Below are positions 8,296-59,962 of a DNA stretch of 64,000 nt, piece by piece (positions within the stretch are counted from its first letter, which is position 1; each line of letters begins with the position of its first letter). A program made the translations under genes and the position numbers. Source of the stretch: Oscillospiraceae bacterium (GTDB lineage Bacteria > Bacillota > Clostridia > Oscillospirales > Ruminococcaceae); assembly GCA_025757845.1 (NCBI GenBank), contig CP107211.1, positions 1,488,001-1,552,000 of the forward strand, read 5' to 3'. The notes beneath the pieces are model-generated. The model saw only the letters and a list, made by a program, of their open reading frames with translations, did no database searches and had not been told where the DNA came from.

Positions 8296-8310
8296 CTGTA
8301 CCAGAAAGTT

Positions 8311-8422
8311 CGTTTCAGGGCGGGGTGCGATTCCCCACTGGCGGTAAAGTCCGCGACCACCCGCAAGGGTGCTGACCCGGTGCAACTCCGGGACCAACGG
8401 TATAGTCCGGATGCAAGAAACG
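8311..8422 (+). promoter_or_regulatory. FMN (RFN) riboswitch
   Basis: P1 is CGTTTC (8311-8316) with GAAACG (8417-8422). Between them is the conserved RFN core: AGGGCGGGGTGCGATTCCCC, then CTGGCGGTAAAGTCCGCGA, then GACCCGGTGCAACTCCGGGA and GGTATAGTCCGGATG. FMN binding is expected to favour the terminator at 8444 and switch off ribU. Confidence 0.95.
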
Positions 8423-8443
8423 GCAGACAACGTTTGTGTCTAC

Positions 8444-32586: not shown

Positions 32587-33336
32587 ATGAAACTTGCAGG
32601 AAAAACGGACGTCGGGCTTGTCCGGCAGGACAATCAGGACGATTACCGTGCTGGGCAGCTGCCCGGGGATGCGGCTTGGGCCCTGGTGTGCGACGGCATG
32701 GGCGGCGCACGCGGCGGCAGGGAAGCATCCCAGAGCGCATGCGATGTGATCGAGCGCTGTTTTCAGGAGCACTACAACAAATGTCTGCCCGGAGAGGAAG
32801 AGCTCTTTCTCAAACGGACGCTGGTCAGCGCCAACCGCTTTGTGTTCCAGAAGTCCATCCGGGAAGAGTCTCTGGCCGGTATGGGCACCACGGCGGTGTG
32901 CGCACTGGTGCGCTCCGGCAAAGCCTATCTGTGCCACGCAGGCGACTCCCGTGCCTATCTGTTCCGGGACGGCAGCCTGGCCCAGCTCACCCATGATCAC
33001 TCCTATGTGCAGGAGCTGGTGGACTGCGGCACCATCACCGTGGAGGAAGCCGAGCATCACCCCCAGAAGAACATCATCACCCGGGCGCTGGGCGTGGATT
33101 ACCGCCTGGACCCGGAGTTCACCAGTGTGGCTGTGCATCCGGGCGACATTCTGCTGCTGTGCTCCGACGGCCTGACCAACGCGGTACCCCGGCCTCAGCT
33201 GGAACAGCTGCTGCGTACTGGCAGCTTCTACGACCTGCCGGATCTGCTGATCCGGGCCGCCAACGAGAACGGCGGCAAGGACAACATCACGGCCTTGCTG
33301 CTGGGCGTGGAGCCGCTGGAGGTGCACCATGGATAA
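32587..33336 (+). CDS. prpC: PP2C-type Ser/Thr protein phosphatase (PrpC/Stp)
   Basis: 249 residues. The PPM metal-binding motifs are present: TDVGLVRQDNQDDY, LVCDGMGGARGG, GMGTTAVCAL, AGDSRAYL, LLLCSDGLTNAV and GGKDNITALL. It removes phosphates added by the PASTA kinase encoded just downstream (8-base overlap), forming an antagonistic signalling pair that usually controls cell-wall synthesis and translation. Confidence 0.96.
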   Translation: MKLAGKTDVGLVRQDNQDDYRAGQLPGDAAWALVCDGMGGARGGREASQSACDVIERCFQEHYNKCLPGEEELFLKRTLVSANRFVFQKSIREESLAGMGTTAVCALVRSGKAYLCHAGDSRAYLFRDGSLAQLTHDHSYVQELVDCGTITVEEAEHHPQKNIITRALGVDYRLDPEFTSVAVHPGDILLLCSDGLTNAVPRPQLEQLLRTGSFYDLPDLLIRAANENGGKDNITALLLGVEPLEVHHG

Positions 33337-35227
33337 CCTGATCGGCAAAAAGCTGGATGGGCTGTATGAAGTCAAGGAACTCATCGGCTCCGGCGGCATG
33401 GCCAATGTGTACAAGGCGGTTATGCTGGGCCGCAACGGCCCGGTGCCCGCCGGTACTGTGGTGGCGGTGAAGGTGCTCCGGCAGGAGTACACCCACGACC
33501 CGGAGCTTGTGCGCCGGTTCAAGAACGAATCCAAGGCCATTTCGCTGCTCAACCACCCCAACATCGTCAAGGTATACGACGTTTCGGTCAACGACCAGCT
33601 GCAGTATATCGTCATGGAATATGTGGACGGTATGACCCTGCGGGAATACCTCAACGAGCGGGGCGGCAAACTCACCAGCCGGGAGACTGTGCACTTTATT
33701 TCCCAGATCCTCAAGGCGCTGGAGCACGCCCACGCCAACGGTGTGGTGCACCGGGACATCAAGCCCCAGAACATCATGCTGCTGGACAACGGCCAGCTCC
33801 GCATGATGGACTTTGGCATCGCGCGCATCTCCCGGGCCGAAAACCAGCTGCTCAGCGGCAAGACCATGGGCAGTGTGCACTATATCAGCCCGGAGCAGGC
33901 CAAGGGCGACGAGACCGACTGCACCAGCGATATTTACTCGGTGGGCGTCATGATGTACGAGATGCTCTCCGGTCAGCTGCCGTTTGATGCAGAGGACGCC
34001 GTGGAGGTGGCCATCAAGCAAATCTCGGATCAGCCGAAATCCCTGCACGAGATCGCTCCGCAGGTGCCTGCCGCACTGGTGGAGATCACCGAAAAAGCCA
34101 TGGCGAAGCTGCCGCAGAACCGGTATGCTTCGGCCCGTGAAATGCTGGACGCGCTGGATACCTATGTGCAGAACCCGTCCGTCATGTTCGAGTATCAATA
34201 TATCACAGAGGATGCACCCGAAAAGGTGGTGAAACGTACGATGAATCAGAACAAAGCTGCCCGCCAGAACCATCCGAACGAGTCGGCTGCCCCGCGCGGC
34301 AAAAATGCAAAGCGCAAGCGGCGCACCATTTTTCTGCCGGTCCTGTTCGGCATCACGATCGCTTTTGCACTGGCCTGTTTGGCCCTGTGCTGGCTGATCC
34401 TGAACGACTCGTCCAACCTGATGAACAACAAGGCCGATATCACCCTGAACGATTACATCGGCATGACCCAGGAGGAAGCCCAGGCCACCGAGCAGGTGGC
34501 TTCCGGCCAGATCAGCGTGACCTGGGAGCAGGAATACAACAGCAACTATGCGGCCGGTTATATCTACAAACAGTCGCCGGTGTCCGGCCGCACCGTGCGT
34601 GAGGGCCAGGGCGTGACCCTGACCGTCAGCCTGGGCACCCAGTATGTCACCGTGCCGGACCTGACCAACTATGTGCAGGCCGACGCCGAGCAGCAGCTCA
34701 AGAGCCTGGGCGTTTCTGTGCTGGTGACCCAGGCCGTGGACACCTCCGTGGCCTCCGGCGCCGTGATCCGCACCGACCCGGCAGCCGGCACCCAGGTAGA
34801 ATCCGGATCCACGGTGGTGGTCTATGTCAGCCGCCCGCAGGTGGCCACCACCACCAAGGTGCCGTCGCTGTCCGGCATGAGCGTGGACGATGCCCGCACC
34901 CTGCTGGTGCAGAACCATCTGGGCCTGGGCAGCCAGACCGACCAGTACAGCGACCAGCCGGTGGGCACGGTCATCGGGCAGAACCCGGCGGCCGGTTCCA
35001 CCGCCAAGCTGAACGGCCGCGTGAACATCACCGTGAGCGCCGGCCCGGAGCCCGCGCCGGTGGAGCCGGAAGCACCCAGCGGCAGCGGCAGCGACTGGTG
35101 GGGCAGCCTGTGGGGCGGTGACAGCAGTTCCTCTTCCGGCTCTTCTTCCAGCACCGAGACTGGTGAATCCGCTTCCAGCAGCGAAGGCTCCGGCCTTGCC
35201 GACTGGTGGACTTCGCTGTTGGGCTGA
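33329..35227 (+). CDS. prkC: PASTA-domain Ser/Thr protein kinase (PrkC/PknB)
   Basis: 632 residues. The kinase domain (about 13-280) is complete: GSGGMANVYKA, Lys48 in VAVKVL, HRDIKPQN (Asp143), DFG (161-163) and SPEQ. A basic linker precedes one membrane span (about 334-357). Three PASTA domains follow (about 371-436, 439-502, 508-572), which sense muropeptide or lipid II outside the cell. The C-terminal tail is odd: two DWW-x-SL-x-G motifs (589-596 and 625-632) flank a Ser/Glu-rich stretch. It is coupled to prpC upstream and rsgA downstream. Confidence 0.96.
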   Translation: MDNLIGKKLDGLYEVKELIGSGGMANVYKAVMLGRNGPVPAGTVVAVKVLRQEYTHDPELVRRFKNESKAISLLNHPNIVKVYDVSVNDQLQYIVMEYVDGMTLREYLNERGGKLTSRETVHFISQILKALEHAHANGVVHRDIKPQNIMLLDNGQLRMMDFGIARISRAENQLLSGKTMGSVHYISPEQAKGDETDCTSDIYSVGVMMYEMLSGQLPFDAEDAVEVAIKQISDQPKSLHEIAPQVPAALVEITEKAMAKLPQNRYASAREMLDALDTYVQNPSVMFEYQYITEDAPEKVVKRTMNQNKAARQNHPNESAAPRGKNAKRKRRTIFLPVLFGITIAFALACLALCWLILNDSSNLMNNKADITLNDYIGMTQEEAQATEQVASGQISVTWEQEYNSNYAAGYIYKQSPVSGRTVREGQGVTLTVSLGTQYVTVPDLTNYVQADAEQQLKSLGVSVLVTQAVDTSVASGAVIRTDPAAGTQVESGSTVVVYVSRPQVATTTKVPSLSGMSVDDARTLLVQNHLGLGSQTDQYSDQPVGTVIGQNPAAGSTAKLNGRVNITVSAGPEPAPVEPEAPSGSGSDWWGSLWGGDSSSSSGSSSSTETGESASSSEGSGLADWWTSLLG

Positions 35228-35238
35228 CGGAGGCAGGC

Positions 35239-36117
35239 ATGAACGGTTATATCGTAAAAGGCATCGGCGGCTTTTACTACGTTAAAACGCCGGATGGCAT
35301 CGTGGAATGCAAGCCCCGCGGCATTTTTCGCAAGCAGAAGATCACCCCGGTGGCCGGGGATGAGGTAACGCTGGAAACCGAGAACGGGGCTTCGGTCATT
35401 GCACAGATCGCCCCGCGCAAGAACGTATTCGTGCGGCCGCCGGTGGCAAACCTGGACGTTCTGTTTCTGGTGGCCAGCACCACCCAGCCTACCCCCAGCA
35501 CCCTGGTGCTGGACAAGCTGTCCGCCATTGCAGTGGACAAGGGCGTGCAGCCGGTGATCGTGTGCACCAAGGGCGATCTGGCGGAGACAGAGTTCCTGCG
35601 CAGTGCGTATGAAAAATCCACCCTGCCGTTCATCCGCATCGACTACAGCAGCGGAGCCGGGCTGGACGAGGTCAAACAGTGGATCAGCGGACGGCTGTGC
35701 GCGTTCTGCGGCAACTCCGGTGTGGGCAAGTCCACGCTGCTCAACGCATTGCTGCCGGATGCTGCCCGGGAGACCAGCGCCATCAGCCAGAAGCTGGGCC
35801 GCGGCCGCCACACCACCCGGGAAGTGACTATTTTTGAAGCCTTTGGCGGCCGCATTGCCGACACGCCGGGCTTTGCCAGCCTGGAAGCAAACCGGGCAGG
35901 CTTTATCCCTAAGGAAAATCTGGAGCACGCTTTCCCAGAGTTCGGACCCTATCTGGGGCAATGCCAGTTCACCGGCTGCTCCCACCGGACCGAAAAGGGA
36001 TGCGCTGTGCGGCAGGCTCTTGCCGAGGGCAAGCTCTCCCAGACCCGGTACGACAGCTACTGCGCCATGTACGATGAGGTCAAGGACGTCAAGGACTGGC
36101 AGCGCCCTAAATTTTAA
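35239..36117 (+). CDS. rsgA: Ribosome small-subunit GTPase RsgA
   Basis: 292 residues. An OB fold is followed by a circularly permuted GTPase: TKGD (G4) comes before GNSGVGKSTLLN (G1) and DTPGF (G3). A C-terminal zinc site uses CQFTGCSHRTEKGC. RsgA assists late 30S maturation. ATG 35239 has GGAGG close upstream. In Bacillus rpe follows; here thiN does. Confidence 0.95.
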   Translation: MNGYIVKGIGGFYYVKTPDGIVECKPRGIFRKQKITPVAGDEVTLETENGASVIAQIAPRKNVFVRPPVANLDVLFLVASTTQPTPSTLVLDKLSAIAVDKGVQPVIVCTKGDLAETEFLRSAYEKSTLPFIRIDYSSGAGLDEVKQWISGRLCAFCGNSGVGKSTLLNALLPDAARETSAISQKLGRGRHTTREVTIFEAFGGRIADTPGFASLEANRAGFIPKENLEHAFPEFGPYLGQCQFTGCSHRTEKGCAVRQALAEGKLSQTRYDSYCAMYDEVKDVKDWQRPKF

Positions 36118-36137
36118 AAAGCAAGGAAGGTTTGTTT

Positions 36138-36773
36138 ATGGCACGGTGTGTGATCCTTTCGGCCTGCCCGGTCTCTCCGGCGCTGGCCGGTCTGCTGCGG
36201 GAAGATGATTTTATCATCGCCTGCGATGCAGGCTACCGCAACTGCGTGCCCCTGCACTGCAAGCCCCATGTGATCGTGGGCGACTTCGACACGGCACCCT
36301 GCCCGCAGCAGGAGGACGACGAGATCGTAGTTCTGCCCCATGTCAAGGACGATACCGATACGGAATACGCGGCAAAGCTGGCCGTGCAGAAGGGCTTTGA
36401 CGAGGTGCTTCTGCTGGGGGGCCTCGGCGGCAGGCGGCTGGAGCACACCCTTGCCAACCTGTGCACCGGCCTCGGCCTGGAGAAGCGTGGCGTGCGTGCC
36501 ACCCTGCAGGACGAGCGCAGCCGTATCACCTTTGTGATGCCCGGCGAGACGCGCCGCTACCCCAAAGAGGATTACTTCTATTTCTCGGCGTTCCCCATGG
36601 AAGGCCGTGCAGAGGGCGTCTGCGAGCAGGGTTCCTATTACGAACTCACCGATGCAGAGCTGACCGCAGGCTACCCGCTGGGTGTCAGCAACGAATACGC
36701 CGAAGGCTCCGACTGCATCACGGTGTCCACTCGCGAAGGGGCACTGGTCATCGTGGAAACGGTGGCGGACTGA
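36138..36773 (+). CDS. thiN: Thiamine pyrophosphokinase
   Basis: 211 residues. CDAGYRNC, VGDFDT (metal Asp pair), DDTDTEYAAKLA and LGGLGGRRLEHTLANL are the catalytic-domain motifs; GYPLGVSNEY in the small domain binds thiamine. It makes thiamine diphosphate from thiamine with ATP. AAGGAAGG lies 7 bases before ATG 36138. It is the last large gene of the operon and sits directly before spoVM, as in Bacillus. Confidence 0.94.
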   Translation: MARCVILSACPVSPALAGLLREDDFIIACDAGYRNCVPLHCKPHVIVGDFDTAPCPQQEDDEIVVLPHVKDDTDTEYAAKLAVQKGFDEVLLLGGLGGRRLEHTLANLCTGLGLEKRGVRATLQDERSRITFVMPGETRRYPKEDYFYFSAFPMEGRAEGVCEQGSYYELTDAELTAGYPLGVSNEYAEGSDCITVSTREGALVIVETVAD

Positions 36774-36851
36774 TTCTTTTCCGGCAATTCCGGAACATTC
36801 CGGCTGCAAACTGCTTATAGTGTGGTATCAGATGGAAAGGTGGGGATCGGG

Positions 36852-36938
36852 ATGCAGGTGATCGTGCTCAAAAGCCCCAGACTGCTGCGCGGTGTGCTGC
36901 GCAGACTGTTTGGCATCCGCAGCAACACGCAGGAATAA
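36852..36938 (+). CDS. spoVM: SpoVM-like spore morphogenesis peptide
   Basis: A 28-residue peptide, MQVIVLKSPRLLRGVLRRLF then GIRSNTQE. Aligned without gaps to Bacillus SpoVM (26 residues), it keeps Met1, Lys7, Pro9, a basic residue at 10, Leu12, Gly14, branched residues at 15-16, Arg17 and Gly21. Pro9 and the amphipathic helix after it let SpoVM sense the curved forespore membrane and anchor SpoIVA. AAGGTGG lies 9 bases before the ATG. The position after rsgA-thiN matches the Bacillus locus. Ordinary ORF cut-offs would miss it. A terminator follows at once. Confidence 0.78.
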   Translation: MQVIVLKSPRLLRGVLRRLFGIRSNTQE

Positions 36939-36954
36939 GCGCAAGTCAAGCAAA

Positions 36955-36988
36955 GCTCCCGTCGGGCAGGCCCCGGCGGGAGTTTTTT
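36955..36988 (+). terminator. Terminator after spoVM
   Basis: CTCCCGTCGGG pairs with CCCGGCGGGAG (11 pairs, one G-U), then TTTTTT. It separates spoVM and the thiN operon from the next gene. Confidence 0.86.
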
Positions 36989-36991
36989 GCT

Positions 36992-37020
36992 GCATATCTC
37001 CCGGCCCGGCCGCATACCGT
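36992..37020 (+). promoter_or_regulatory. Candidate sigma-E (sporulation) promoter of the SipL-like gene
   Basis: GCATATC (36992-36998), 14 bases, CATACCGT (37013-37020). Against the Bacillus sigma-E consensus (K-M-ATATT, 13-15 bases, CATACA-N-T) each box has one mismatch, and the spacing is right. It lies about 35 bases before the start codon. No sigma-A promoter of comparable quality is visible there. Confidence 0.55.
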
Positions 37021-37054: not shown

Positions 37055-38584
37055 ATGGAACTGAAGATCTTTCGGGACACGATGCCGCAGGCGGGCACGG
37101 TGTGCACCGTCAAGGCAGAGCTCCCGCTGGAGACCGAGATTCTGGTCTCGGACTATCTGCCGCCGGTGTTCAAACTGGTCAAATGCTTTGCAAAGCCGGT
37201 CATCCTGCAAAAGCAGCTGCAGCCGGGCAGGCTGACACTGGAGGGTTATCTGCGCTGCACGGTCTATTATCAGGGCGAGGAGGGTACAGGTCTCTGCCAG
37301 ACCGAACAGAAACTGCCCTTTACAAAACAGTTGGAGCTTCCGGAGTTTGACTTTACGGCCTGGACGGCGGTGGTGGAGGGTCAGACCGAATACCTCAACA
37401 GCCGGGTGGTCAACCCGCGCCGCATGGAGGTGCGAGGCGCCGTGGGGCTGGTGGCGACCGTGCGCACCCAGAACAAAGCGGAGGTGATCACTGCACTGGC
37501 CGATGGCGGCATTGAGCAGCAGCTGGACACCCTGCAGGGCGTGCGCAGCATTGCGGTGCTGGATAAGCTGATCTCGGCCGAAGGGGAGCTGGCTTTTCCC
37601 AGCCCGCCGGCGGCGGTGCTGGACATTGCAGGCACAGCCACTGCACAGGAGGTACGGCTGCTGTCCGGCAAAGCGGTGGTCAAGGGCGAAGTACGGGTGC
37701 AGTGTGCCTGGCGTGCCGAGCAGGAAACCGAATTGCAGAGCCTGAGCACGACTCTGCCGTTCCAGCAGGTGCTGGATGTGGACGGCCTGACCGAGGACTG
37801 CAAGTGTCTTTGCGTGGTGGAGCCGGTAGGCTTTTCCCTGACGGAAGGGCAGCCGGACGCGGCGGGCACCCTGTCGGCCAGCCTGATGCTGCATTTGCGG
37901 GCCTGGCGCAGCTACCAGCTGCAATATGCGGCGGACGCCTTTTCCACCCGGTTTGAAACGGAGCTTGTCCCACAGGAGCTGGTGGCCGAAAAACTGGTCT
38001 GCATGCTGAATGCAACCACGACAGTTTCCGGTTCCGGCCCGCTGCCGGATGCCGGGGCACAGCTGCGTGCCTGTTTTGTATCGTATGGGCCTGTCAGCAT
38101 CTCGCAGCAGAGTGGGCAGGGCGGCGGCTGGACGCTGACAGCCCGCGCCACGGCCACCGCCTTTGCGGAGAACAGCCTGGGAGAGCTGGACAGCTACGAA
38201 AAAACGCTGGAGCTTTCCGTGCCCATCCCGGCCGAGGTGCCCGCCGGGATGCAGCTGCAGCCGGAATGCTGGCTGAGTACCGACAGCGTACAGTGTACCT
38301 GCACTGGCGGAACCCTTACCGTAACCATCACCGCCCGGGCTGAGGGTGCCATCCTGGGACGCAGTACCCGCCAGGGCATTGGCAGCATTTCGCTGGGCGA
38401 AGCCCTGACCCCTGCCGACCCGGAGATCACCTTGCGCATTTACTATGCACAGGAAGGGGAGGCGCTGTTCGATATCGCGCGGCGGTTCCATGTGCCGCCG
38501 GCCCAGATGCTGGCGGCCAACGGACTGGACCCCGACACCCGGGTGCTGACGCAGGCACAGCATTTTCTGGTGCCGGGCCTCTGA
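37055..38584 (+). CDS. sipL: SipL-like spore coat morphogenetic protein (DUF3794 repeats plus LysM)
   Basis: 509 residues, no signal peptide. Repeated DUF3794-type beta domains fill most of the protein (for example KVTC-like EILVSDYLPPVFKLVKC and VVEPVGFSLTEGQPDAAG). A C-terminal LysM domain follows (about 462-508: IYYAQEGEALFDIARRF to HFLVPGL). This architecture is that of clostridial SipL, whose LysM binds SpoIVA during coat assembly, the job of SpoVID in Bacillus. GGGAAAGGAG precedes the ATG. It lies next to spoVM and behind a sigma-E-like promoter, both consistent with a spore role. Confidence 0.8.
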   Translation: MELKIFRDTMPQAGTVCTVKAELPLETEILVSDYLPPVFKLVKCFAKPVILQKQLQPGRLTLEGYLRCTVYYQGEEGTGLCQTEQKLPFTKQLELPEFDFTAWTAVVEGQTEYLNSRVVNPRRMEVRGAVGLVATVRTQNKAEVITALADGGIEQQLDTLQGVRSIAVLDKLISAEGELAFPSPPAAVLDIAGTATAQEVRLLSGKAVVKGEVRVQCAWRAEQETELQSLSTTLPFQQVLDVDGLTEDCKCLCVVEPVGFSLTEGQPDAAGTLSASLMLHLRAWRSYQLQYAADAFSTRFETELVPQELVAEKLVCMLNATTTVSGSGPLPDAGAQLRACFVSYGPVSISQQSGQGGGWTLTARATATAFAENSLGELDSYEKTLELSVPIPAEVPAGMQLQPECWLSTDSVQCTCTGGTLTVTITARAEGAILGRSTRQGIGSISLGEALTPADPEITLRIYYAQEGEALFDIARRFHVPPAQMLAANGLDPDTRVLTQAQHFLVPGL

Positions 38585-44283: not shown

Positions 44284-44757
44284 ATGCAGATCAATCTGAT
44301 GCTGAACGGAGTGCGCGTCTCGGACGATGTGGCTCCCGATACGCTGCTCATCGACTTTGTGCGCAGACATGGATGCCTGAGCGTCAAACGCGGCTGCGAA
44401 ACTTCCAACTGCGGCTTGTGCACGGTCTTTCTGGATGACAAGCCGGTGCTGTCCTGTTCTGTGCTGGCCGCCCGCGCCGACGGTCACAAGGTGACCACGC
44501 TGGAGGGCCTGCAGGAAGAAGCTGCCGAATTCGGTGCCTTCATCGCCGATCAGGGCGCAGAGCAGTGCGGCTTCTGCAACCCGGGCTTTATCATGAATGC
44601 TCTGGCGCTGTTCCGGGAAAATCCATACCCGTCTGCCGAAGAAATCAAAGAATATCTTTCCGGCAATCTCTGCCGCTGCTCCGGCTATGAAGGCCAGCTG
44701 CGCGGCATCCTGAATTTTCTGGACTGGAAGAAACAGAAGGAGGCGGCTGCTGAATGA
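44284..44757 (+). CDS. Molybdenum hydroxylase [2Fe-2S] subunit
   Basis: 157 residues. The plant-ferredoxin-type cluster uses GCETSNCGLCTVFLDDKPVLSC, and the second cluster uses CGFCNPGF and CRCSGYEG. It relays electrons from the molybdenum site to FAD. The stop overlaps the large-subunit start by 4 bases (ATGA). Confidence 0.95.
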   Translation: MQINLMLNGVRVSDDVAPDTLLIDFVRRHGCLSVKRGCETSNCGLCTVFLDDKPVLSCSVLAARADGHKVTTLEGLQEEAAEFGAFIADQGAEQCGFCNPGFIMNALALFRENPYPSAEEIKEYLSGNLCRCSGYEGQLRGILNFLDWKKQKEAAAE

Positions 44758-47045
44758 ACACGGTCAACAAACCGTTCCGCAAAAAGGACGCCATGCAGCT
44801 GGTCACCGGCCAGCCGGTCTATATGGATGATGTGATCCCGCAGGACTGCCTGATCGTCAAGCTGCTGCGCTCGCCTCATGCAAACGCCATGGTCCGGACG
44901 ATCAACACGACCGTGGCCAAGAAGGTGCCTGGCATTGAAGCCATCTTCACCTGGGAGGATGTCCCGCAGGATGCGCCCCGCTACACCCAGGCAGGCCAGA
45001 CCTTCCCGGAGGCAAGCCCCCGTGACCGACTGCTCATCGACCGCCACGTCCGTTTTGTGGGTGATGTGGTGGCCATCGTGGCCGGTAAGGACGAAAAGTG
45101 CGTGGACAAGGCCCTCAAGCTCATCAAGGTGGAGTACCAGGTACTGGAGCCGGTGATGGATTTCCACACCGCCAAGGACAACCCGGTTCTGGTGCACCCG
45201 GAGGACAACTGGGAGGCCCTGTGCCCGGTAGGGGCCGACAACAAGCGCAACCTGTGTGCCCACGATGAGTGCGGCTCCGGAGACATCGACGCAGTGCTGG
45301 CGGGGTGCGATGTGGTGATCGACCATGTTTACCACACCAAGGCATGCCAGCAGGCCATGATGGAAACCTTCCGCACCTATTGTTCCATTGACACTTATGG
45401 GCGGCTGAACGTGCTCAGCTCCACCCAGATCGTGTTCCATGCCCGGCGCAACATCGCCAACGCTCTCCACATCCCCAAATCCATGGTGCGTGTGGCAAAG
45501 CCCCGGGTGGGCGGCGGTTTTGGTGCCAAGCAGACAGCGGTCAGCGAGGTATACCCCGCCTTTGTGACCTGGAAAACCAAAAAGCCCTCCAAGATCATTT
45601 TCAGCCGGGTGGAAAGCCAGACGGCCTCCTCTCCGCGTCACGAAATGGAGATGCATGTCCGGCTGGGTGCCACGAAGGATGGCATCGTGAAGGGCATCGA
45701 CCTGTACACGCTGTCCAACACCGGTGCCTATGGCGAGCACGGCCCCACGACCGTGGGCCTGTCCGGCCACAAATCCATCCCGCTGTACGGCAAGGCCGAA
45801 GCGTTCCGCTTTGTCAGCGATGTGGTGTATACCAACCACATGTCTGCCGGTGCCTACCGCGGCTACGGTGCGACCCAGGGCCTGTTTGCTGTGGAATCTG
45901 CCGTGAACGAGCTGGCCCACAAGCTGAACATGGACCCCTTTGCCCTGCGCCTGAAGAACACGGTGCAGGAGGGCGATGTGATGCCTGCCTACTACGGTGC
46001 CGTGAACACCAGCTGTGCGCTGGACCGCTGTCTTGTCAAGGTGCGGGAGATGGTCGACTGGGAGCACAAATACCCGGCCCGTGATCTGGGCAACGGCAAG
46101 GTGCGCGCCGTCGGCATGGGCATGGCCATGCAGGGCTCCGGTATTTCCGGCATGGACGTGGGCAGTGCGACCCTCAAGCTGAACGATGATAGATTCTACT
46201 CGCTGATCATCGGTGCAGCGGATATGGGCACCGGCTGTGACACCACGCTGGCGCAGATCGCCGCCGAGGTGTTGGAGTGCCCCTTGGACAACATCACCGT
46301 CTTTGGTACTGATACCGATTCCTCCCCCTACGACTCCGGCTCCTACGCATCCAGCACCACCTACGTCACCGGCAAGGCCACTGAGAAGTGTGCCATGAAG
46401 CTGCGGGAACAGATCTGCAAGCTGGGTGCCGAGCTGCTGGGCTGCCCGGCAGATGCTGTGGAGTTTGACGGCAAAGAAGTGTTTGAAAGCGCCGCCCCGG
46501 AAACGAAAAAGACCCTGTCCGAGATCGCCTATGCGTCTCAGTTCGGCCATATGGTCCCGCTGGAAGCCACCGAGACCCACACTTCGCCCCTGTCGCCGCC
46601 GCCCTTTATGGTGGGTGCTGCCGAGGTGGAAGTGGATACCGAGACCGGCGAGGTGAAGGTGCTGGAGTTTGACGCCTGCGTGGACTGCGGTACGCCCATC
46701 AACCCCAACCTGACCCGTGTGCAGGCGGAAGGCGGCATCCTGCAGGGCATCGGTATGACGCTGACCGAGAATGTTACCTATGACCGGAAGGGCTGCCCGG
46801 AAGAGAACTCGCTGTTCCAGTACAAGATCCCCACCCGCATCGACATCGGAAAAATCAACGTGGAGTTTGAGAACAGCTATGAGCCAAACGGCCCGTTTGG
46901 TGCAAAATCCATCGGTGAGGTGGTCATCAACACGCCGCTGCCGGCCATTTCAGACGCCATTTACAACGCCATCGGCACCCGTTTCTATGAGCTGCCCATT
47001 ACTCCGGAGCAGATTGCCATGGCCGCTGCTGAAAACCACAAATGA
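44754..47045 (+). CDS. Molybdenum hydroxylase large (molybdopterin-binding) subunit
   Basis: 763 residues, full length for the xanthine dehydrogenase/aldehyde oxidase family. Signatures are LVTGQPVYMDD at the start, RVGGGFGAKQ, GAYRGYGATQG (molybdopterin), the IGAADMGTGCDTTLAQIAAE segment and PFGAKSIGE with the catalytic Glu. The companion genes point to the selenium-dependent type, in which a labile selenium ligand replaces the terminal sulfur on molybdenum. Substrate is probably a purine, given the permease nearby; nicotinate or another heterocycle is possible. Confidence 0.93.
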   Translation: MNTVNKPFRKKDAMQLVTGQPVYMDDVIPQDCLIVKLLRSPHANAMVRTINTTVAKKVPGIEAIFTWEDVPQDAPRYTQAGQTFPEASPRDRLLIDRHVRFVGDVVAIVAGKDEKCVDKALKLIKVEYQVLEPVMDFHTAKDNPVLVHPEDNWEALCPVGADNKRNLCAHDECGSGDIDAVLAGCDVVIDHVYHTKACQQAMMETFRTYCSIDTYGRLNVLSSTQIVFHARRNIANALHIPKSMVRVAKPRVGGGFGAKQTAVSEVYPAFVTWKTKKPSKIIFSRVESQTASSPRHEMEMHVRLGATKDGIVKGIDLYTLSNTGAYGEHGPTTVGLSGHKSIPLYGKAEAFRFVSDVVYTNHMSAGAYRGYGATQGLFAVESAVNELAHKLNMDPFALRLKNTVQEGDVMPAYYGAVNTSCALDRCLVKVREMVDWEHKYPARDLGNGKVRAVGMGMAMQGSGISGMDVGSATLKLNDDRFYSLIIGAADMGTGCDTTLAQIAAEVLECPLDNITVFGTDTDSSPYDSGSYASSTTYVTGKATEKCAMKLREQICKLGAELLGCPADAVEFDGKEVFESAAPETKKTLSEIAYASQFGHMVPLEATETHTSPLSPPPFMVGAAEVEVDTETGEVKVLEFDACVDCGTPINPNLTRVQAEGGILQGIGMTLTENVTYDRKGCPEENSLFQYKIPTRIDIGKINVEFENSYEPNGPFGAKSIGEVVINTPLPAISDAIYNAIGTRFYELPITPEQIAMAAAENHK

Positions 47046-47749
47046 TCGGGGAACAGCAGTTTCCGTTTCTGGCGGAAAAAGGCCATGTGGTCTCGCTGAT
47101 GGGCGGCGGCGGAAAAACAACGCTGCTGTATGTCATGGCCAGCCATTGCGCGCAGAAAGGTTGGCGGGTGCTGGTGTCCACTACCACCCACATCCTGCGC
47201 CCGGAAAACGGGCTCTGGGCAAAGACTGACGCCGAAATACAGGAACTCTGGGCCCGCGGCTCTTATGCCGTGGTGGGCTCTCCGGCTCCCAAGGGTAAGT
47301 TGACCGCACCGCCGGAAGCAGACCTTGCCCACTGGATGGCACAGGCAGACGCCGTGTTTCTGGAAGCCGACGGTGCAAAGCATTTCCCGTGCAAAGCCCC
47401 GGCGGAGCAGGAACCTGTTCTGCTGCCGCAAAGCGACATCGTACTGGCGGTGGCCGGGCTTTCCGCACTGGGCCACCCTTTGAAAGAATGCTGCTTCCGG
47501 TTGGAACAAGCCTGCATGCTGCTGGGCGTTCCGCCGGAGGCCTGCCTGACCCCGGAACTTCTGGCTCAACTGCTGGCAAGTGAGCAGGGCGGCCGGAAAC
47601 GAGTGGGCAGCAGGGCCTTTTATGCGGTGCTCAATCAGGCAGATACGCCGCAGCGCCAACTGCTCGGGAAGCAGACGCTCTGTGTTCTGCAGGAACGTTA
47701 TCGTGTGAACGGCGTTCTGACACAATTTGAAGAGGGAGAACGTGCATGA
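47042..47749 (+). CDS. yqeC: YqeC-type putative selenium-dependent hydroxylase accessory protein
   Basis: A 235-residue P-loop protein: [18 protein letters not shown] is the unusual GGGGKTT Walker A, and [16 protein letters not shown] is the characteristic second motif. The family occurs almost only beside selenium-dependent molybdenum hydroxylases (Haft and Self type island); its reaction is not established. It overlaps the large subunit and selD by 4 bases each. Confidence 0.9.
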
Positions 47750-48780
47750 GCAAGGATGAAAAAATCGTATTCTGTACCGGGGGCGGCTGCACGGCAAAGC
47801 TGGGTGCCGGTGTACTGAGCCGCATTCTGGAAAAGCTGCCCCGCGGCGAAAAGGACCCGAATCTGCTGGTGGGGTATGACAGCCGGGATGATGCCGCCGT
47901 CTACCGCGTTACAGAAGGTCTGGCCCTGGTGCAGACGGTGGACTTTTTCCCACCCATGGTGGATGACCCCTATACCTTCGGGCAGATCGCAGCGGCCAAC
48001 GCCCTGAGCGACGTGTATGCCATGGGTGGCGAGGTGAAAACTGCCCTCAATCTGGTGTGTTTCCCGGAAAATATGGACCTGAACGTTTTGGGCGAGATCC
48101 TGCGCGGCGGAGCCGAAAAGGTAGCCGAAGCAGGGGGCATTCTGGCCGGAGGTCATTCCATTGCAGACACCGGCGTCAAATACGGCCTGTCGGTGACCGG
48201 CCTTGTGGACCCGCATCATCTGTACGCAAACGATGCCGGCCAGCCGGGAGACAAGCTGCTGCTGACCAAAGCGCTGGGTGTGGGGCTGCTGTGCACCGCA
48301 AACCGCGTGGGCGAGGCGGCCCCGGAACACATGGCTGCCGCCATTCATTCCATGACAACCCTGAACAAGACCGCTGCGGAGATCAGCCGCCGGTATACTG
48401 TGCACGCGGCCACCGATGTGACTGGCTTCAGTTTTCTGGGGCATCTGCACGAGATGATGGGCGGGAAACTTTCCTGCAAGATCAACGCCCGCGCCGTGCC
48501 GGTGCTGCCGGGCGCGAAAAAGGCGGCAGATGACTTCCTGTACACCGCCGCCGGGCAGCGCAACCGCAATCATACCGGGCCTTTTGTCCGGTTTGAGGGC
48601 GTTCCGTTTGCCATGGAAGAAGTCTTGTTCGACCCGCAGACATCCGGCGGTCTGCTGCTGGCAGTGGACCCGGCGGAGGCCAGCGCGCTGGAGAAAGAAC
48701 TGCAATCTGCTGGTCTGCCCGCGAAGATCGTGGGCGAGATCGTTCCCCGAACCGAGATCGAGATCACAGTAACATACTGA
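47746..48780 (+). CDS. selD: Selenophosphate synthetase
   Basis: 344 residues. The catalytic loop is GGGCTAKLG: Cys15 and Lys18 match E. coli Cys17 and Lys20, and the residue is encoded as Cys (TGC), not selenocysteine. Other motifs are [54 protein letters not shown] and [10 protein letters not shown]. It makes selenophosphate from selenide and ATP. No selA, selB or tRNA-Sec is in the window, as expected if this copy serves the hydroxylase cofactor. Confidence 0.95.
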
Positions 48781-48802
48781 TCTACTGAAAGGAGAAACGA
48801 TT

Positions 48803-49405
48803 ATGACTCATGTTGATGCAAGAGGAGACGCCTGCCCGCTGCCGGTCGTCAAGGCCAAGCGCGCTATTTCGGAGCTGAAGGGTGCCGGTCAGGTGGAAAT
48901 TCTGGTGGACAACGAGATCGCCGTGCAGAACCTGACCAAGATGGCCCAGCAAAAGGGTTATCAGTACAGCGCCGAAAAGCTGGCCGAACGGGAATACCGA
49001 GTGCTGTTCACCATCGGGGAGGCCCCGGCGGCTGAAGAGACCCCGGCCGTCTGCATGCCGGACGCCCGCACGGATACCGTGGTGGCCATTGGCGCAAACA
49101 CTATGGGTGCCGGGGCCGAGGAGCTGGGCAAGACCCTGCTCAAGGCGTTCGTGTTTGCCCTGACGCAGCAGGACAAGCTGCCCAAGACGGTTCTGTTCTA
49201 TAACGGCGGTGCATCCCTGACCTGTGAGGGCTCTCCCATGCTGGAGGACCTCAAAACGCTGGAATCGGAAGGTGTGGAGATCATGACCTGCGGCACCTGC
49301 CTGAACTATTACGGCCTGACCGAGAAGCTGGCCGTAGGCAGCGTGACGAACATGTATGCCATCGTGGAAAAGCTGACCCATGCCGGGAACGTGGTCAAGC
49401 CGTGA
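48803..49405 (+). CDS. yedF: YedF-like sulfurtransferase/selenium metabolism protein
   Basis: 200 residues in two parts. The N-terminal TusA-like domain has VDARGDACPLPVVKAKRAI, whose Cys can carry sulfur or selenium as a persulfide or selenide. The C-terminal DsrE-like domain runs from about 90, with FYNGGASLTCEGS and MTCGTCLNYYGL. This fusion accompanies SelD in selenium-metabolising bacteria and may deliver selenium to the cofactor. AAAGGAG precedes the ATG; the stop overlaps the next start. Confidence 0.92.
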   Translation: MTHVDARGDACPLPVVKAKRAISELKGAGQVEILVDNEIAVQNLTKMAQQKGYQYSAEKLAEREYRVLFTIGEAPAAEETPAVCMPDARTDTVVAIGANTMGAGAEELGKTLLKAFVFALTQQDKLPKTVLFYNGGASLTCEGSPMLEDLKTLESEGVEIMTCGTCLNYYGLTEKLAVGSVTNMYAIVEKLTHAGNVVKP

Positions 49406-50541
49406 TCTATCTGGACAATGCTGCCACCACGCTGTACAAACCGCAGGAAGTGGACGCCGCCATTCTGGACGCCCTGCACACCGCAGGCAATCCCGGCCGC
49501 GGTGCCCATGAGCCGACCCTGCATGCTTCCCGGCTGGTGTATGCCGCACGGGAAGCGCTGGCAGAGCTTTTCCACGCGCCGGACCCTGCCTGCATTGCCT
49601 TTACGGCCAACGCCACCGGCGCGTTGAACACCGCCCTGTGCGGGCTGCTGGGGCCGGGGGATCATGTCATCACCACCGTGTGTGAGCATAATTCGGTCCT
49701 GCGGCCGCTGTACCGGCTGCGGACACAGGGGGTCCAGCTCAGCTTTGCCGGGGTAGACGCCAAAGGCCGCCTGCAATATGAAAAATGGGAAGAGCTTGTG
49801 CGCCCAAACACCAGAGCGCTGGTCGTGACCGGAGCGTCCAATGTGACCGGCAACTGTACCGATCTTGCAAAGGCTGCGGCCTTTGCGCACCGGCACGGCT
49901 TGCTGCTGATCGTGGATGCCGCGCAGACGGCCGGAGCCCAGTCCATCGACGTACAGGCGCTGGGTGTGGATGTGCTGTGCTTCACCGGGCATAAGGCTTT
50001 ACTGGGGCCGCAGGGCACCGGCGGGCTGTATGTGCGTCCGGGTGTGCAGATCGCGCCCCTTGTAGTGGGCGGCAGCGGCGTGCACAGCTATGACGAGCAG
50101 CATCCCGCCCAGATGCCCACCGCACTGGAGGCCGGCACCCTGAACGTGCACGGCCTTGCCGGGCTTTGCGCCGGAGTACAATGGCTTCTGACACAGGGCG
50201 TGGAAACGCTGGCCGCCCGCGAAGCTGCACTGGCTCGCTGTTTTTACGAAGAAGTATGCGGTATGCCGGGCGTGACTGTATACGGCGACATTGAGACCGC
50301 TCTGCGTGCGCCCATCGTCTCCCTGAATATCGGAGACGAGGACTCTGCCCGGGTGGCCGATATCCTGTGGGAGGACTACGGCATCTGTGTGCGGGCCGGA
50401 GCACATTGCGCCCCGCTGATGCACAAGGCGCTTGGCACGGTGGAACAGGGCGTGGTACGGTTCAGCTTTTCACACAGCAATACCATGGAAGAAGCTCTGC
50501 ACGCTGCACAGGCCGTGCGGGAGCTGGCACAGGAGCTGTAA
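49402..50541 (+). CDS. Cysteine desulfurase family protein of the selenium/molybdenum island
   Basis: A 379-residue class V aminotransferase. MIYLDNAATT, TANATGALNTAL, CFTGHKALLGPQGTGGLYV (PLP Lys) and RAGAHCAPLMHKALGT (Cys loop) are seen. Related enzymes liberate sulfur or selenium from cysteine or selenocysteine; in this island it probably feeds SelD/YedF or the Mo site. The start is GTG 49402, overlapping the yedF stop (GTGA). It ends directly before the DUF3343 gene. Confidence 0.92.
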   Translation: MIYLDNAATTLYKPQEVDAAILDALHTAGNPGRGAHEPTLHASRLVYAAREALAELFHAPDPACIAFTANATGALNTALCGLLGPGDHVITTVCEHNSVLRPLYRLRTQGVQLSFAGVDAKGRLQYEKWEELVRPNTRALVVTGASNVTGNCTDLAKAAAFAHRHGLLLIVDAAQTAGAQSIDVQALGVDVLCFTGHKALLGPQGTGGLYVRPGVQIAPLVVGGSGVHSYDEQHPAQMPTALEAGTLNVHGLAGLCAGVQWLLTQGVETLAAREAALARCFYEEVCGMPGVTVYGDIETALRAPIVSLNIGDEDSARVADILWEDYGICVRAGAHCAPLMHKALGTVEQGVVRFSFSHSNTMEEALHAAQAVRELAQEL

Positions 50542-50772
50542 ATGCGCACAAAAAAGACCTATATCGTGCTCTCCTTCCGCACAACGGTGGAAGCCATGGC
50601 CTGGGAGAAGCACTGCGCCACAGCACAGATCCCCGGGCGGCTGATCCCGCTCCCACGGGAGATCTCCGCCGGGTGCGGCCTTGCTTGGCGCATGACGCCG
50701 GAGGATTGGGAGCACTGGAACAGCCTGCTGGACCCGGCGGCTTACGACGCGGTGTCGCAGGTGGAGCAATGA
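50542..50772 (+). CDS. DUF3343 protein
   Basis: 76 residues. TYIVLSFRTTVEAMAWEKHC and LPREISAGCGLAWR fit the family, which has a putative Se/S-binding Cys near the latter motif (Cys at about 49). The fold resembles a small ferredoxin-like domain. It follows the desulfurase without a gap and is part of the selenium/molybdenum operon; the role is inferred from that context only. Confidence 0.88.
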   Translation: MRTKKTYIVLSFRTTVEAMAWEKHCATAQIPGRLIPLPREISAGCGLAWRMTPEDWEHWNSLLDPAAYDAVSQVEQ

Positions 50773-50790
50773 CGAACAGGAGAACATTTC

Positions 50791-51840
50791 ATGAGCGCAT
50801 TGGTTGATGCCCTGCAGAAAGGGCAGGTCACCGGAGACTGTACCCTTGCGGCGGTTCTGGATGGACCGGAGGCCGGCAGCCAGATTCTGCTGCGCGGCGG
50901 GCACCCGGTGTGGCAGACCCACAGCAGCGGCGTATTGCAGCGCAGCCTTTCCCGTTTGCAGGAATGCACAGCCACCGGGTTTCTGGAACTGGACGGCGCG
51001 CGGGTGTTTGTGGAACGATTCGGTGCGGTACCGCAGATCGTTGTCTGCGGCGGCGGTCATGTGGCGGTATCGGTGGTACGGCTGGCAAAACTGCTGGGCC
51101 TGCCGGTGCTTGCTATGGAGGACCGCACGGAATATGCGCAGGACCTGCGGGATGCCGGAGCGGACACGGTCCTCTGCTTACCGTTTGCGCAGGCACTGGA
51201 GCAGGTGCCCGGCGGGGCAGAGACCTACTTTGTGGTCGTGACCCGCGCCCATGCCTTTGATGTGGCCTGCCTGGAGCAGATCTTGCAGAAACCGGCGGCT
51301 TACGTTGGCATGATGGGCAGCCGGGGCCGGGCCGCACTGGTACGGCGACAGCTGCTGGAAGCCGGGGTGGATGCTGCACGGGTGGAAGCTGTTTTGGCCC
51401 CCATCGGACTTGCCATCGGGGCCAAAACAGCCGAAGAGATCGCGCTGTCCATTCTGGCGCAGATCGTGGAAGTGAAAAACGCCCGCCCTCAGACCGAGGG
51501 CTTTGCTCCGGCGCTTCTGGCGGCGATGGAGCAGGCCGCACAGAACGGCCAGCCTGCAGTGCTGGCGACGATCATTGCACGGCACGGCTCCACCCCGCGG
51601 GAGGTCGGCTCCAAAATGCTGCTCCTGCCCGATGGCACGACTGTGGGCAGTGTGGGCGGCGGCATCATGGAATACCGTACTCGGCAGGCCGCCGCTGAAA
51701 TGCTGGCCGGGCATACAGCATCGGTGCAGACGGTCACATTTTCGGCCGACGGCAAAAACGAAGATGCCGCGGTTGCGGCCTGCGGTGGTTCCATGGAGCT
51801 TCTGCTGGAAATCATTCCGGAAGGAGGATCCATGAAATGA
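50791..51840 (+). CDS. XdhC/CoxI-type molybdenum hydroxylase maturation protein
   Basis: 349 residues. The Rossmann domain has VVCGGGHVAVSVVRLAKLLG and VVVTRAHAFDVACLEQIL, then AYVGMMGSRGRAALVRRQL and IGLAIGAKTAEEIALSILAQIV. A C-terminal CoxI-like part follows, with ATIIARHGSTPREVGSKMLLL and TVGSVGGGIME. The order is swapped relative to the classic XdhC, where the CoxI part comes first; this is the form seen in selenium-dependent islands. XdhC inserts sulfur on molybdopterin before apo-enzyme loading, so this protein may insert selenium. It overlaps yqeB by 4 bases. Confidence 0.9.
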   Translation: MSALVDALQKGQVTGDCTLAAVLDGPEAGSQILLRGGHPVWQTHSSGVLQRSLSRLQECTATGFLELDGARVFVERFGAVPQIVVCGGGHVAVSVVRLAKLLGLPVLAMEDRTEYAQDLRDAGADTVLCLPFAQALEQVPGGAETYFVVVTRAHAFDVACLEQILQKPAAYVGMMGSRGRAALVRRQLLEAGVDAARVEAVLAPIGLAIGAKTAEEIALSILAQIVEVKNARPQTEGFAPALLAAMEQAAQNGQPAVLATIIARHGSTPREVGSKMLLLPDGTTVGSVGGGIMEYRTRQAAAEMLAGHTASVQTVTFSADGKNEDAAVAACGGSMELLLEIIPEGGSMK

Positions 51841-52652
51841 AACAGGATGCCTTGATTCTGGTGCGCGGCGGCGGCGACCTTGCTACCGGCACCATCCATC
51901 GTCTGTGGTCCGCCGGGCTGCGGGTGCTTGTACTGGAAACCGCTCACCCGGCGGCTATCCGGCGGCAGGTGTCGCTCTGCGAAGCTGTGTACGAAGGTGA
52001 AACAACGGTAGAGGGTCTGAGGGCTGTTCGTATCGACACACTGGAACAGGCTCCGACCGTCTGGGCACAGAATGCGGTGCCCGTCCTCATCGACCCGGCA
52101 GGCAGCTGCGTGGCACAAGCAAAGCCGGATGTATTGGTGGATGCCATTCTGGCCAAGAAGAATCTTGGCACCACCCGTGATATGGCACCGCTGACCATCG
52201 CCCTTGGCCCCGGATTTACAGCCGGACAAGATGTGGATGTCGTGGTCGAGACGAAGCGCGGCCATCGGCTGGGCCGTATCATCCGGGAGGGCGCTGCCAT
52301 CCCGAACACTGGTATTCCGGGTGTCATCGGCGGTTATGGCAAGGAGCGGGTCATCCATGCGCAGACGGAAGGCATCTTTCAGGATGTGCGAAAGATCGGT
52401 GACCTGGTGGAAGCAGGGGAGATCATCGCACAGATCCGGACGTCGGAAGGCAAATCCATCCCGGTCACCACACAGATCGGCGGCATCCTGCGCGGTCTGC
52501 TGCGCAGCGGCTACCCGGTCACTCCGGGGTTCAAGGTGGCTGATGTGGACCCCCGCCGGGAAGAGCTTTCCAACTGTTTCCTGATCTCGGATAAATCCCG
52601 CTGTATTGCGGGCAGTGTGCTGGAGCTTGTCTGCGCACAGCTGTGGAACTAA
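51837..52652 (+). CDS. yqeB: YqeB/EF2570-type selenium-dependent molybdenum hydroxylase accessory protein
   Basis: 271 residues. LILVRGGGDLATGTIHRLW opens with a Rossmann-like GGGD motif, and GPGFTAGQDVDVVVET and GYPVTPGFKVADVDPR are family marks. The C-terminal half looks biotinyl/lipoyl-like (about 175-230), with VKIGDLVEAGEIIAQI-type turns. It is diagnostic of the island but its reaction is unknown. It is the last gene, followed by a strong terminator. Confidence 0.92.
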   Translation: MKQDALILVRGGGDLATGTIHRLWSAGLRVLVLETAHPAAIRRQVSLCEAVYEGETTVEGLRAVRIDTLEQAPTVWAQNAVPVLIDPAGSCVAQAKPDVLVDAILAKKNLGTTRDMAPLTIALGPGFTAGQDVDVVVETKRGHRLGRIIREGAAIPNTGIPGVIGGYGKERVIHAQTEGIFQDVRKIGDLVEAGEIIAQIRTSEGKSIPVTTQIGGILRGLLRSGYPVTPGFKVADVDPRREELSNCFLISDKSRCIAGSVLELVCAQLWN

Positions 52653-57549: not shown

Positions 57550-59962
57550 ATGGAAACAAGCTACTTAAAAACATTAGAACTGGATAAGATCATCGCCCGT
57601 GCTGCGGAGGGCTGTGTATGTAAGGAAGCAAAGGCGAAGCTCCTGGCACTTGAGCCGCAGTGTGACCCAGACGAGGTGCGCTATGCGCTGGAGCAGACGG
57701 ATGCCATCAATACGCTGCTGATCAAGAACGGTTCGCCCCGTTTCGGCGGAGTGGAGGGCGTCAGTGCGCTGGCCGCCCGTGCGGTCAAGGGCGGCGTGCT
57801 TTCCATGGGCGAGCTGCTGATGGTGGCCGGTGCTTTGCGCAACTTCCAGAACCTGACCAACTGGTACGGTTCTTCGGAGCACGATATGCTCCCGACCGAT
57901 GATCTGTTCTATGCATTGTCCCCGGAGCCGGGCCTGGAACAGCAGATCTCCAGTGCGATCCTTGCCCCGGATGCGATGGCCGACACGGCCTCCCGCACCC
58001 TGAACGACCTGCGCAAGAAGATCCGTGCGACCGAAAACAGCATCCGCGACCGTCTGGAAAGCATGGTGCGCAACATGGACACCTCAAAATATCTGCAGGA
58101 GAGTGTGGTCTCCATGCGCAACGGCCGCTACGTTGTCCCGGTCAAGAGCGAATACCGCGGCGAAGTGAGCGGCATCATCCATGACGTTTCCTCTACCGGT
58201 GCAACGGTGTTTGTGGAACCGCAGGCTGTCGTGGAAGCCAATGCCCGCATCCTGCAGTATCGTGCCCAGGAAGCGCAGGAGATCGAGCGCATTCTGGTAG
58301 CCTTTACCGCACAGGTGGCAGCCATTGAGCCGCAGTTCCAGTACAGCTATCAGGCCATGCTGGACATTGATGTCCTGCTGGCAAAGGCGCGTCTGGCGCT
58401 GGAGCTCAAGGCATTCAAACCTGCAGTGCGCACCGACAATTCCTTCTCGCTGATCCGGGCACGCCACCCATTGATCGACCCACAGAAGTGCGTGCCGGTG
58501 GACATTGCACTGGGCAAAGAATATGATTCGCTCATCATCACCGGCCCGAACACCGGCGGCAAGACCGTCACCCTGAAAACGGCCGGTCTGCTGTGCGCGA
58601 TGGCACAGTGTGGTTTCCTGATCCCGGCCGACGAGCGCAGCGAGGTCTGCGTGTTCGATGAGTTTTCTCGTGGACATCGGCGATGAGCAGAGCATCGAAC
58701 AGAGCCTTTCCACCTTCTCAGGCCATATGAAAAAGATCACCGGCATTCTGGAGCTGGCCATGCCGCACACCCTTGTGCTGCTGGACGAGCTGGGCGCCGG
58801 TACCGACCCTGCCGAGGGTGCCGCGCTGGCTGTGGCCATCATTGAAGAACTGCGCCGCCGCGGCGTGCTGCTGATGGCCACCACCCACTATGCAGAGCTC
58901 AAGGTGTTCGCACTGGAGACCAAGGGCGTCGTGAACGCCAGCTGCGAATTCGATCTGGAAACGCTGCGCCCGACCTATAAGTTGAGCGTCGGCGTGCCGG
59001 GCAAGTCCAACGCATTCCTCATCAGTGAGAAGCTTGGCATCCCGGAGCGGGTCATTGAGGCAGCGCAGCAGCATCTGTCGGCCGAGGATAAGCGGCTGGA
59101 TGCCGTTCTGGGTCAGCTGGATGATCTGAAATTGCAGCTGAAGGAAAGCCAGCACGAGGTGGAAGAGCTGAAGAACGAGGCATCCCACCAGCTGGAGGCT
59201 GCCCAGAAAAAGCGGGATGAACTGATCCAGCAGGGCGAAAACGAGCTGGAAGCGGCCCGCGCCAAAGCCCGTGCGCTGGCCCAGCAGGTGGAAAGCCAGG
59301 CCTATGCGCTGACCGACGAACTGCGTCAGCTGCAGAAGGACGAGCGCCTGAGCACCCAGCAGAAAGCCCAGCGTGCCCGTGAGATTGCCAAAAAGGAATC
59401 CGAAAAGCTGTTTATGGGCACCGAGGTGGTGCACAATCCGGTCAAGGAATTTGTGCCGCTGAAAGAGGTCAAGGTAGGGCAGGAGGTCTGCATTGCAGAG
59501 CTCAACCAGCTGGCCACAGTGCTTTCGCTGCCGGACAAGAACGGGGATGTTCTGGTACGGGCCGGCATCATCAAGACCAAGGTCCCGCTCAATGGGCTCA
59601 AACAGCCGGAAAAGCTGGTCAAGGACCCGAAACCGCAGACCAAGGCACAACAGCGGTATTCCCGCCTGACCGGCGACGCAAACCGTCCGAATGGCCGCGT
59701 GGAGCGGGTGCACCGCAGCGCCAAAATGGAGTGCAATCTGCTGGGATTGACCGTGGACGAGGCCTTGCCAGAGGTAGATTCCTTCATCGACCGCGCCATT
59801 CTGAACGGCCAGACCGTAGTCTACCTGATCCACGGCAATGGCACCGGCGCACTGCGCACCGCCATCCACAAGCACCTGCGCGGCAACCGCATGGTCAAGA
59901 GCTTCCGTCTGGGCCGTTACGGCGAAGGCGAAAGCGGCGTGACCGTCGTGGAGCTGAAATAA
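57550..59962 (+). pseudogene. mutS2: MutS2 with an internal frameshift
   Basis: Two frames together make an 803-residue MutS2. The first (to 58686) carries the N-terminal clamp/core and GPNTGGKTVTLKT (Walker A). The second carries IGDEQSIEQSLSTFSGHM, LVLLDELGAGTDPAEGAAL (Walker B), a coiled coil and the C-terminal Smr nuclease domain (HGNGTGALRTAI). Removing one T from TTTT at 58663-58666 restores VFDEF-LVDIGDEQ. MutS2 acts in ribosome-collision rescue and recombination control. The frameshift could be real, a sequencing error in the T run, or suppressed in the cell; both halves look otherwise intact. Confidence 0.88.

Follow-up and report, generated by a model that had tools for sequence, protein, structure and literature searches.

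The window (the whole stretch of DNA analysed, 64,000 nucleotides) carries on its + strand rsgA (35206..36117; TIGR00157, 198.8 bits for a cut-off of 100), thiN, encoding thiamine diphosphokinase (36132..36773; TIGR01378, 127.9 bits, cut-off 76.4), an open reading frame (ORF) at 36852..36938 that was assigned to spoVM from its translation, its profile score and its position after thiN, and sipL (37055..38584), whose product combines a SipL/SPOCS domain (PF12673) with a C-terminal LysM domain (72.4 and 23.5 bits, both above cut-off). Translation of the window placed the ATG of the short ORF at 36852 and the end of its stop codon at 36938, with a product of 28 residues, exactly as the sequence-only reading had described it. 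The end of thiN and this ATG are separated by 78 bases. Upstream of thiN, the gene order is rlmN, stp, prkC and rsgA, which is common to many related loci. Downstream of sipL, the window has an AzlC gene and not spoIVA. A pair consisting of a Stp-type phosphatase and a PASTA kinase (32587-35227) stands directly upstream of rsgA-thiN-spoVM. On visual inspection of the window, no YqfC/YqfD-like ORF was recognized ahead of phoH.

A candidate ribosome-binding site (GGAAAGGTGG / AAAGGTGG; 36836..36843, + strand) was read from the sequence and ends 8 bases before the ATG. The motif AAAGG was found at most 25 bases upstream of spoVM in 25 of 37 related loci. In the spoVM/sipL interval, an intrinsic terminator was located at 36949..36991 on the + strand (stem of -30.2 kcal/mol, z = -4.28, T run). 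A ribosome site and a terminator had both been proposed for the ORF.

Other features of the window were recorded. The mutS2 region (57550-59962) is divided into two overlapping ORFs covering profile positions 3-374 and 374-790, which reflects a frameshift or else an error in sequencing or assembly. A selenium-dependent molybdenum hydroxylase cluster occupies 44754-52652 and includes XdhA-like, YqeC, SelD, YedF, cysteine desulfurase/selenocysteine lyase, XdhC-like and YqeB members. An FMN riboswitch was detected at 8307-8426 (107.5 bits).

The identity of the short ORF was examined with a SpoVM profile built from 27 orthologues, the window peptide being excluded. Among the 1604 open segments of the six frames, the ORF scored 51.7 bits and the runner-up 4.9 bits; the best score in 20 trinucleotide-shuffled windows was 13.4 bits with the same profile. 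Taken alone, the window peptide reached 12.5 bits with NCBIfam SpoVM_broad (E 0.11; curated cut-off 31) and matched no Pfam family. All 28 aligned clade members matched SpoVM_broad with E values of 1 or less, the best being 2e-12, and Pfam SpoV gave weak matches in two of the 28 (best E 0.064), the window not being one of them. Comparison of the clade profile with solved structures returned a sole, weak match, the SpoVM entry 2mvh (E 0.4). Could such a frame be open by chance and unrelated to SpoVM? Its shortness and the 12.5 bits of the window peptide with SpoVM_broad speak for this; the synteny with thiN, the conservation, the clade matches to SpoVM_broad, the profile score and the dN/dS values given below speak against it. 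This explanation is vanishingly improbable and was rejected on the synteny and on a profile score far above those of the shuffles. We conclude that ORF 36852-36938 is a true spoVM. It illustrates how a peptide this short can be lost to annotation through a score cut-off.

The window peptide has all six residues on which the assignment had originally been based (Lys7, Pro9, Leu12, Gly14, Arg17 and Gly21), but positions 7, 17 and 21 vary across the 28 aligned sequences. Met1, Val5, Ser8, Pro9, Gly14, Leu16 and Phe20 are invariant in this alignment, and Gln2 and Leu12 nearly so. In the 2mvh alignment, Lys7, Pro9, Leu12, Gly14 and Arg17 are shared by the window peptide and SpoVM; Gly21 is presumably also common to known SpoVM. 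The peptide resembles SpoVM of Bacillus subtilis and Clostridioides difficile (NF033436, 2mvh) in its length and in its occurrence with SpoIVA and SipL. It differs from them in the invariance of Ser8, in having sipL downstream instead of rpmB, and in its Faecalibacterium host, which is described as non-spore-forming. SpoVM peptides have about 26 residues. In the available excerpt of PMC5607322, Pro9 is the only fully conserved residue of the family alignment; there, Pro9 kinks the helix and is required for the recognition of positively curved membranes. The window peptide has 28 residues and Pro9. Two positions that the same excerpt mentions for B. subtilis differ or vary here: Lys2, which matters in B. 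subtilis, is replaced by Gln, and Ile6, which binds SpoIVA in B. subtilis, corresponds to Leu in the window and to Ile, Val, Leu or Trp in relatives.

Forty-seven loci were compared (46 genome loci and L001), 37 of which include thiN. The ORF had been said to lie right after thiN; besides the window, this order was found in all 37 loci with thiN, including L001, a near-copy of the window. The thiN-spoVM distance was 56-114 bases in 36 loci and 612 bases in L025. We take spoVM of B. subtilis to stand after thiN as well. The description of the position as ancestral holds on the thiN side only, because sipL, not rpmB, stands downstream; a position of spoVM near rpmB is given in the part of PMC5607322 that was available. 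L001 (MT838237.1, 1-5514) is a GenBank entry labelled 'Bacteriophage sp.' and UNVERIFIED, from human faeces in Mexico; it is actually a piece of bacterial chromosome. It carries thiN, spoVM, sipL and azlC, and its ThiN, SpoVM and SipL are 99.0%, 100% and 99.0% identical to those of the window. No sipL was found in the viral contigs that were searched for it.

Among the 45 genome loci readable past sipL, 37 have spoIVA directly after it; the spoIVA start was read for 7 of these. The thiN-spoVM-sipL-spoIVA group is a coat-basement cluster. The loci without spoIVA after sipL (L002-L006, L009, L020 and L024) are all eight from Faecalibacterium, and from the strain names we take them to be human strains. 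For the sipL product, 485 relatives were found, with 66-99% identity among the 120 matches listed. The single match with a name among these 120 is from Faecalibacterium. Relatives in named genomes belong to Faecalibacterium, then to Gemmiger, Fournierella, Pygmaiobacter and other Oscillospiraceae. The closest sipL relatives in named genomes being from Faecalibacterium, the earlier guess of a Faecalibacterium-type host proved sound.

In 14 of the 46 genome loci spoVM was not beside sipL, and 13 of these cases could be explained. The gene was elsewhere within the same locus in L009, L032, L040 and L044, and on another stretch of the genome for L002, L003, L006, L007, L012, L041, L042 and L043. 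The L021 genome has a partial spoVM, the match ending 6 bases before the end of a 3508-base contig. The peptide search gave no spoVM match in the L037 genome. The C. difficile SipL-SpoIVA module, as presented in the available portions of PMC5607322 and PMC3789822, is similar in its SipL with C-terminal LysM, its SpoIVA and its sigma-E-like upstream sequences; it differs from the present clade, in which most of the readable loci have spoVM, sipL and spoIVA clustered.

Loss of the frame or of Pro9 in relatives had been named as the observations that would speak against spoVM. The frame is open in all 37 loci with thiN, Pro9 is kept in all 28 aligned sequences, and no frame break was seen in full spoVM copies. 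For 29 distinct Faecalibacterium spoVM sequences (L025 left out), the median dN/dS was 0.18, and all 368 computable pairs out of 406 were below 1; since pairs are not independent, the pairwise values reported here are descriptions and not P values. In the human-gut lineage, a set of 13 of the spoVM sequences grouped by resemblance, the median was 0.13 (73 of 78 pairs computable). Of the 913 codon differences in this lineage, 344 alter the amino acid, a share of 0.38; 200 simulations gave shares of 0.77-0.84. About 34% of random variants at the distances of this lineage would contain a stop. In Faecalibacterium, spoVM is under purifying selection. Recent pseudogenization of spoVM was rejected on the dN/dS of 0.13-0.18 and the low share of amino acid-changing differences.

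Upstream of spoVM, a promoter-like element of ambiguous sigma type (GGAACATTC-N11-TGCTTATAGTGTGG; 36792..36825, + strand) was recognized from a conserved upstream pattern. A degenerate -10-like pattern, selected after the sequences had been seen, is present in 34 of 37 spoVM upstreams; its frequency in shuffles is 0.225, and 7 of the 41 control upstreams (those of thiN, stp and rlmN) contain it. The strict sigma-E pattern (CATA, 15-18 bases, ATANNNT -10) was found in 0 of the 37 spoVM upstreams, and assignment of the spoVM promoter to sigma-E is unsupported by it. Upstream of sipL, the window has a strict match, the sigma-E-like promoter CATA-N16-CATACCGT (36993..37020, + strand). This pattern occurs in 13 of 47 sipL upstreams (window included), in none of the 41 controls and at a frequency of at most 0.006 in shuffles, and CATANNNT occurs in 26 of the 47 sipL upstreams and in none of the 41 controls. 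The strict pattern also precedes 10 of 14 stand-alone spoIVA genes, from genomes with spoIVA outside the cluster (shuffles at most 0.006). These sigma-E counts are descriptive because the patterns were chosen after inspection of the sequences. A profile scan was trained with 18 sipL upstreams from genera other than Faecalibacterium. In Faecalibacterium, 13 of 25 sipL and 3 of 19 spoVM upstreams beat 95% of the shuffles; so did 7 of 18 spoVM upstreams of other genera and none of the 41 controls. In the accessible text of PMC3789822, sigma-E has ATA at -35 and a CATA-type -10 box that it shares with sigma-K, and in C. difficile sigma-E promoters were mapped in front of both spoIVA and sipL. An additional requirement for SpoIIID is given for B. 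subtilis spoVM in the passages at hand from PMC5607322.

Sporulation genes were then counted in 31 Faecalibacterium genomes, which stand in for the genome of the window. SpoVM matches were obtained in 31/31 (the G012 copy being partial, near a contig end), partly by construction because model A2 includes some of those sequences. With the window peptide as sole query, 18 of 20 genomes of Faecalibacterium and relatives matched; G012 and G015 were missed. SpoIVA matched in 31/31 and co-occurs with SpoVM in the same genomes. Spo0A_C was above cut-off in 31/31, with strong scores (at least 125 bits) in 30 and only 64 bits in G023. SigE-like proteins of at least 300 bits were found in 27/31; none passed the TIGR02835 cut-off, and one example passed the other SigE model (341.4 for a cut-off of 339). 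The advice to look for spoIVA, spo0A and sigE thus led to SpoIVA, Spo0A and SigE-like proteins in the Faecalibacterium relatives. SpoIIE-like proteins were found in 31/31 (strong, at least 167 bits, in 29), none passing the curated cut-off. SpoIID was strong (at least 213 bits) in 28/31, 8 being above cut-off, whereas the group with Faecalibacterium is said to be without SpoIID in the available part of PMC7924749. SpoVAC was detected in 28/31 and SpoIIAB above cut-off in 28/31. GPR matches were present in 26/31 and span only about positions 6-232 of the 353 of the model. A GPR-type protease (example L118:1270-2247) is found in 26/31 genomes though its SASP substrates were not.

In single genomes, spoIIGA-sigE-sigG are adjacent, as are spoIIAA-spoIIAB-sigF; a GPR-type gene is followed by spoIIP, and a SpoVAC-SpoVAD pair is present. 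Spo0A, SigE, SigG, SpoIIAB, SpoIID, SpoIIP, SpoIVA, SpoVAD and GPR were above a curated cut-off in such genomes, and the single-genome examples of SpoIIGA (56 bits), SpoIIAA (72 bits) and SigF (206 bits; cut-off 321) were below. Spo0A, SigF, SigE and SigG are all represented in the genus, SigF-like having been seen in one genome beside SpoIIAB.

Alpha/beta SASPs (PF00269) were found in 0 of the 31 Faecalibacterium genomes; the same model finds the B. subtilis control and 120 of 147 genomes sampled from the same order, G003 (Faecalibacterium) being among the 27 misses. As most of the sporulation genes sought were found, Faecalibacterium might form normal, mature endospores that have escaped notice, its SASPs having diverged beyond the model. 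The performance of the model on the order and on B. subtilis, GPR matches without the last third of the model and the formal description as non-spore-forming make this unlikely. The excerpts available from PMC8452069 place SASPs in all endospore formers and report that C. difficile no longer forms spores once both main SASPs are deleted. Because of that deletion result, the loss of SASPs could by itself account for the missing spores. In the accessible part of PMC3533761, B. selenitireducens has no SASPs and is counted among the species that lost sporulation. On these partial sources, the two papers would fit a loss of SASPs leading to no mature spores, rather than SASP-free spores.

The B. 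selenitireducens case, where the two losses coincide in the excerpt of PMC3533761, would also suit the decay of genes left over from a lost sporulation pathway, as would the SASPs not found, the placement of spoIVA away from the cluster in some Faecalibacterium and the divergence of SpoIIE and SpoIIGA. Decay is nevertheless very unlikely: full spoVM copies are intact where about a third of random variants would carry a stop, dN/dS is low, the partners occur throughout Faecalibacterium as well as in Gemmiger, Fournierella and Pygmaiobacter loci, and a sigma-E-like promoter precedes most stand-alone spoIVA genes. Alternatively, the module of sigma-E and the basement layer could have taken on another role, such as making an internal compartment or an envelope state other than a resistant spore. 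Such a change of use would agree with SASPs not being found while spoVM is selected and the engulfment and coat-basement genes are kept. SpoVAC in 28/31 genomes and the SpoVAC-SpoVAD pair fit the filling of a spore core, and we consider repurposing unlikely.

The preferred explanation, to which we give a probability of roughly 0.8 from the sequence comparisons, is that spoVM is functional within a retained and selected Faecalibacterium programme. The members meant are Spo0A, SpoIIAA-AB-SigF, SpoIIGA-SigE-SigG, SpoIIE, SpoIID, SpoIIP, SpoIVA, SipL and SpoVA. Most likely, the lineage would still carry this programme as far as engulfment and basement-coat assembly, if not further, in circumstances that cultures do not provide; finished spores, if any, would be without alpha/beta SASPs. 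By homology, the SpoVM peptide would form a short amphipathic helix kinked at Pro9 and, in the mother cell, would settle on the convex forespore membrane. It would anchor SpoIVA, and SipL would join SpoIVA and bridge it to the coat, giving the basement layer of the spore coat. Membrane sensing, SpoIVA binding and mother-cell expression are predicted for this SpoVM on the strength of its relatives. The coat-basement module is probably used, because spoVM is selected, both partners are present and a sigma-E-like promoter stands before most of the relocated spoIVA genes. In the available text of PMC5607322, C. difficile SpoVM binds SpoIVA yet is largely dispensable; the role of SpoVM here could for that reason be secondary to that of SipL. 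Several observations weigh against the functional programme: alpha/beta SASPs in 0/31 genomes, a partial GPR, SpoIIE and SigE (TIGR02835) below their cut-offs, the single SpoIIGA, SpoIIAA and SigF examples also below cut-off, a window peptide below the SpoVM_broad cut-off, a spoVM upstream element without strict sigma-E match, and species descriptions as non-spore-forming.

Few bacteria of the human gut are more abundant than Faecalibacterium. In the portions of the papers that could be consulted, F. prausnitzii is described as non-spore-forming and extremely oxygen-sensitive (PMC6295017), sporulation-related genes are among its clade-specific markers (PMC9676633), the genus is placed in a group that has many species of unknown phenotype and a preserved spoIIIA operon (PMC7924749), and F. 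prausnitzii is called a spore-former in passing (PMC8953710). In view of the last three, the presence of some sporulation genes in Faecalibacterium is not new. In the open-licence literature, no paper was found on SpoVM together with Faecalibacterium, nor on Faecalibacterium with sporulation genes and SpoIVA; among the 10 papers listed of 68 on SASPs, one mentions Faecalibacterium, a single time. Faecalibacterium is like the former spore-formers of PMC8340488 in being a gut lineage without reported spores. According to the available part of that paper, sporulation loss is tied to spo0A loss, and former spore-formers are without spo0A and most of the signature genes of stages II-V, whereas Spo0A and those stage II-V genes that were tested are retained in Faecalibacterium.

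Extreme oxygen sensitivity and the description as non-spore-forming, as they appear in the excerpt of PMC6295017, make the host-to-host passage of Faecalibacterium a puzzle. Tentatively, and as a possible rather than a probable answer, the whole genus may make an endospore-like resting cell with a SpoVM-SpoIVA-SipL basement and SpoVA, without alpha/beta SASPs; such a soft spore would be missed by heat and ethanol tests and would explain transmission between hosts. With a selected spore-coat anchor and its partners, a sigma cascade and engulfment genes, and with SASPs not found, the transmission question becomes directly testable.
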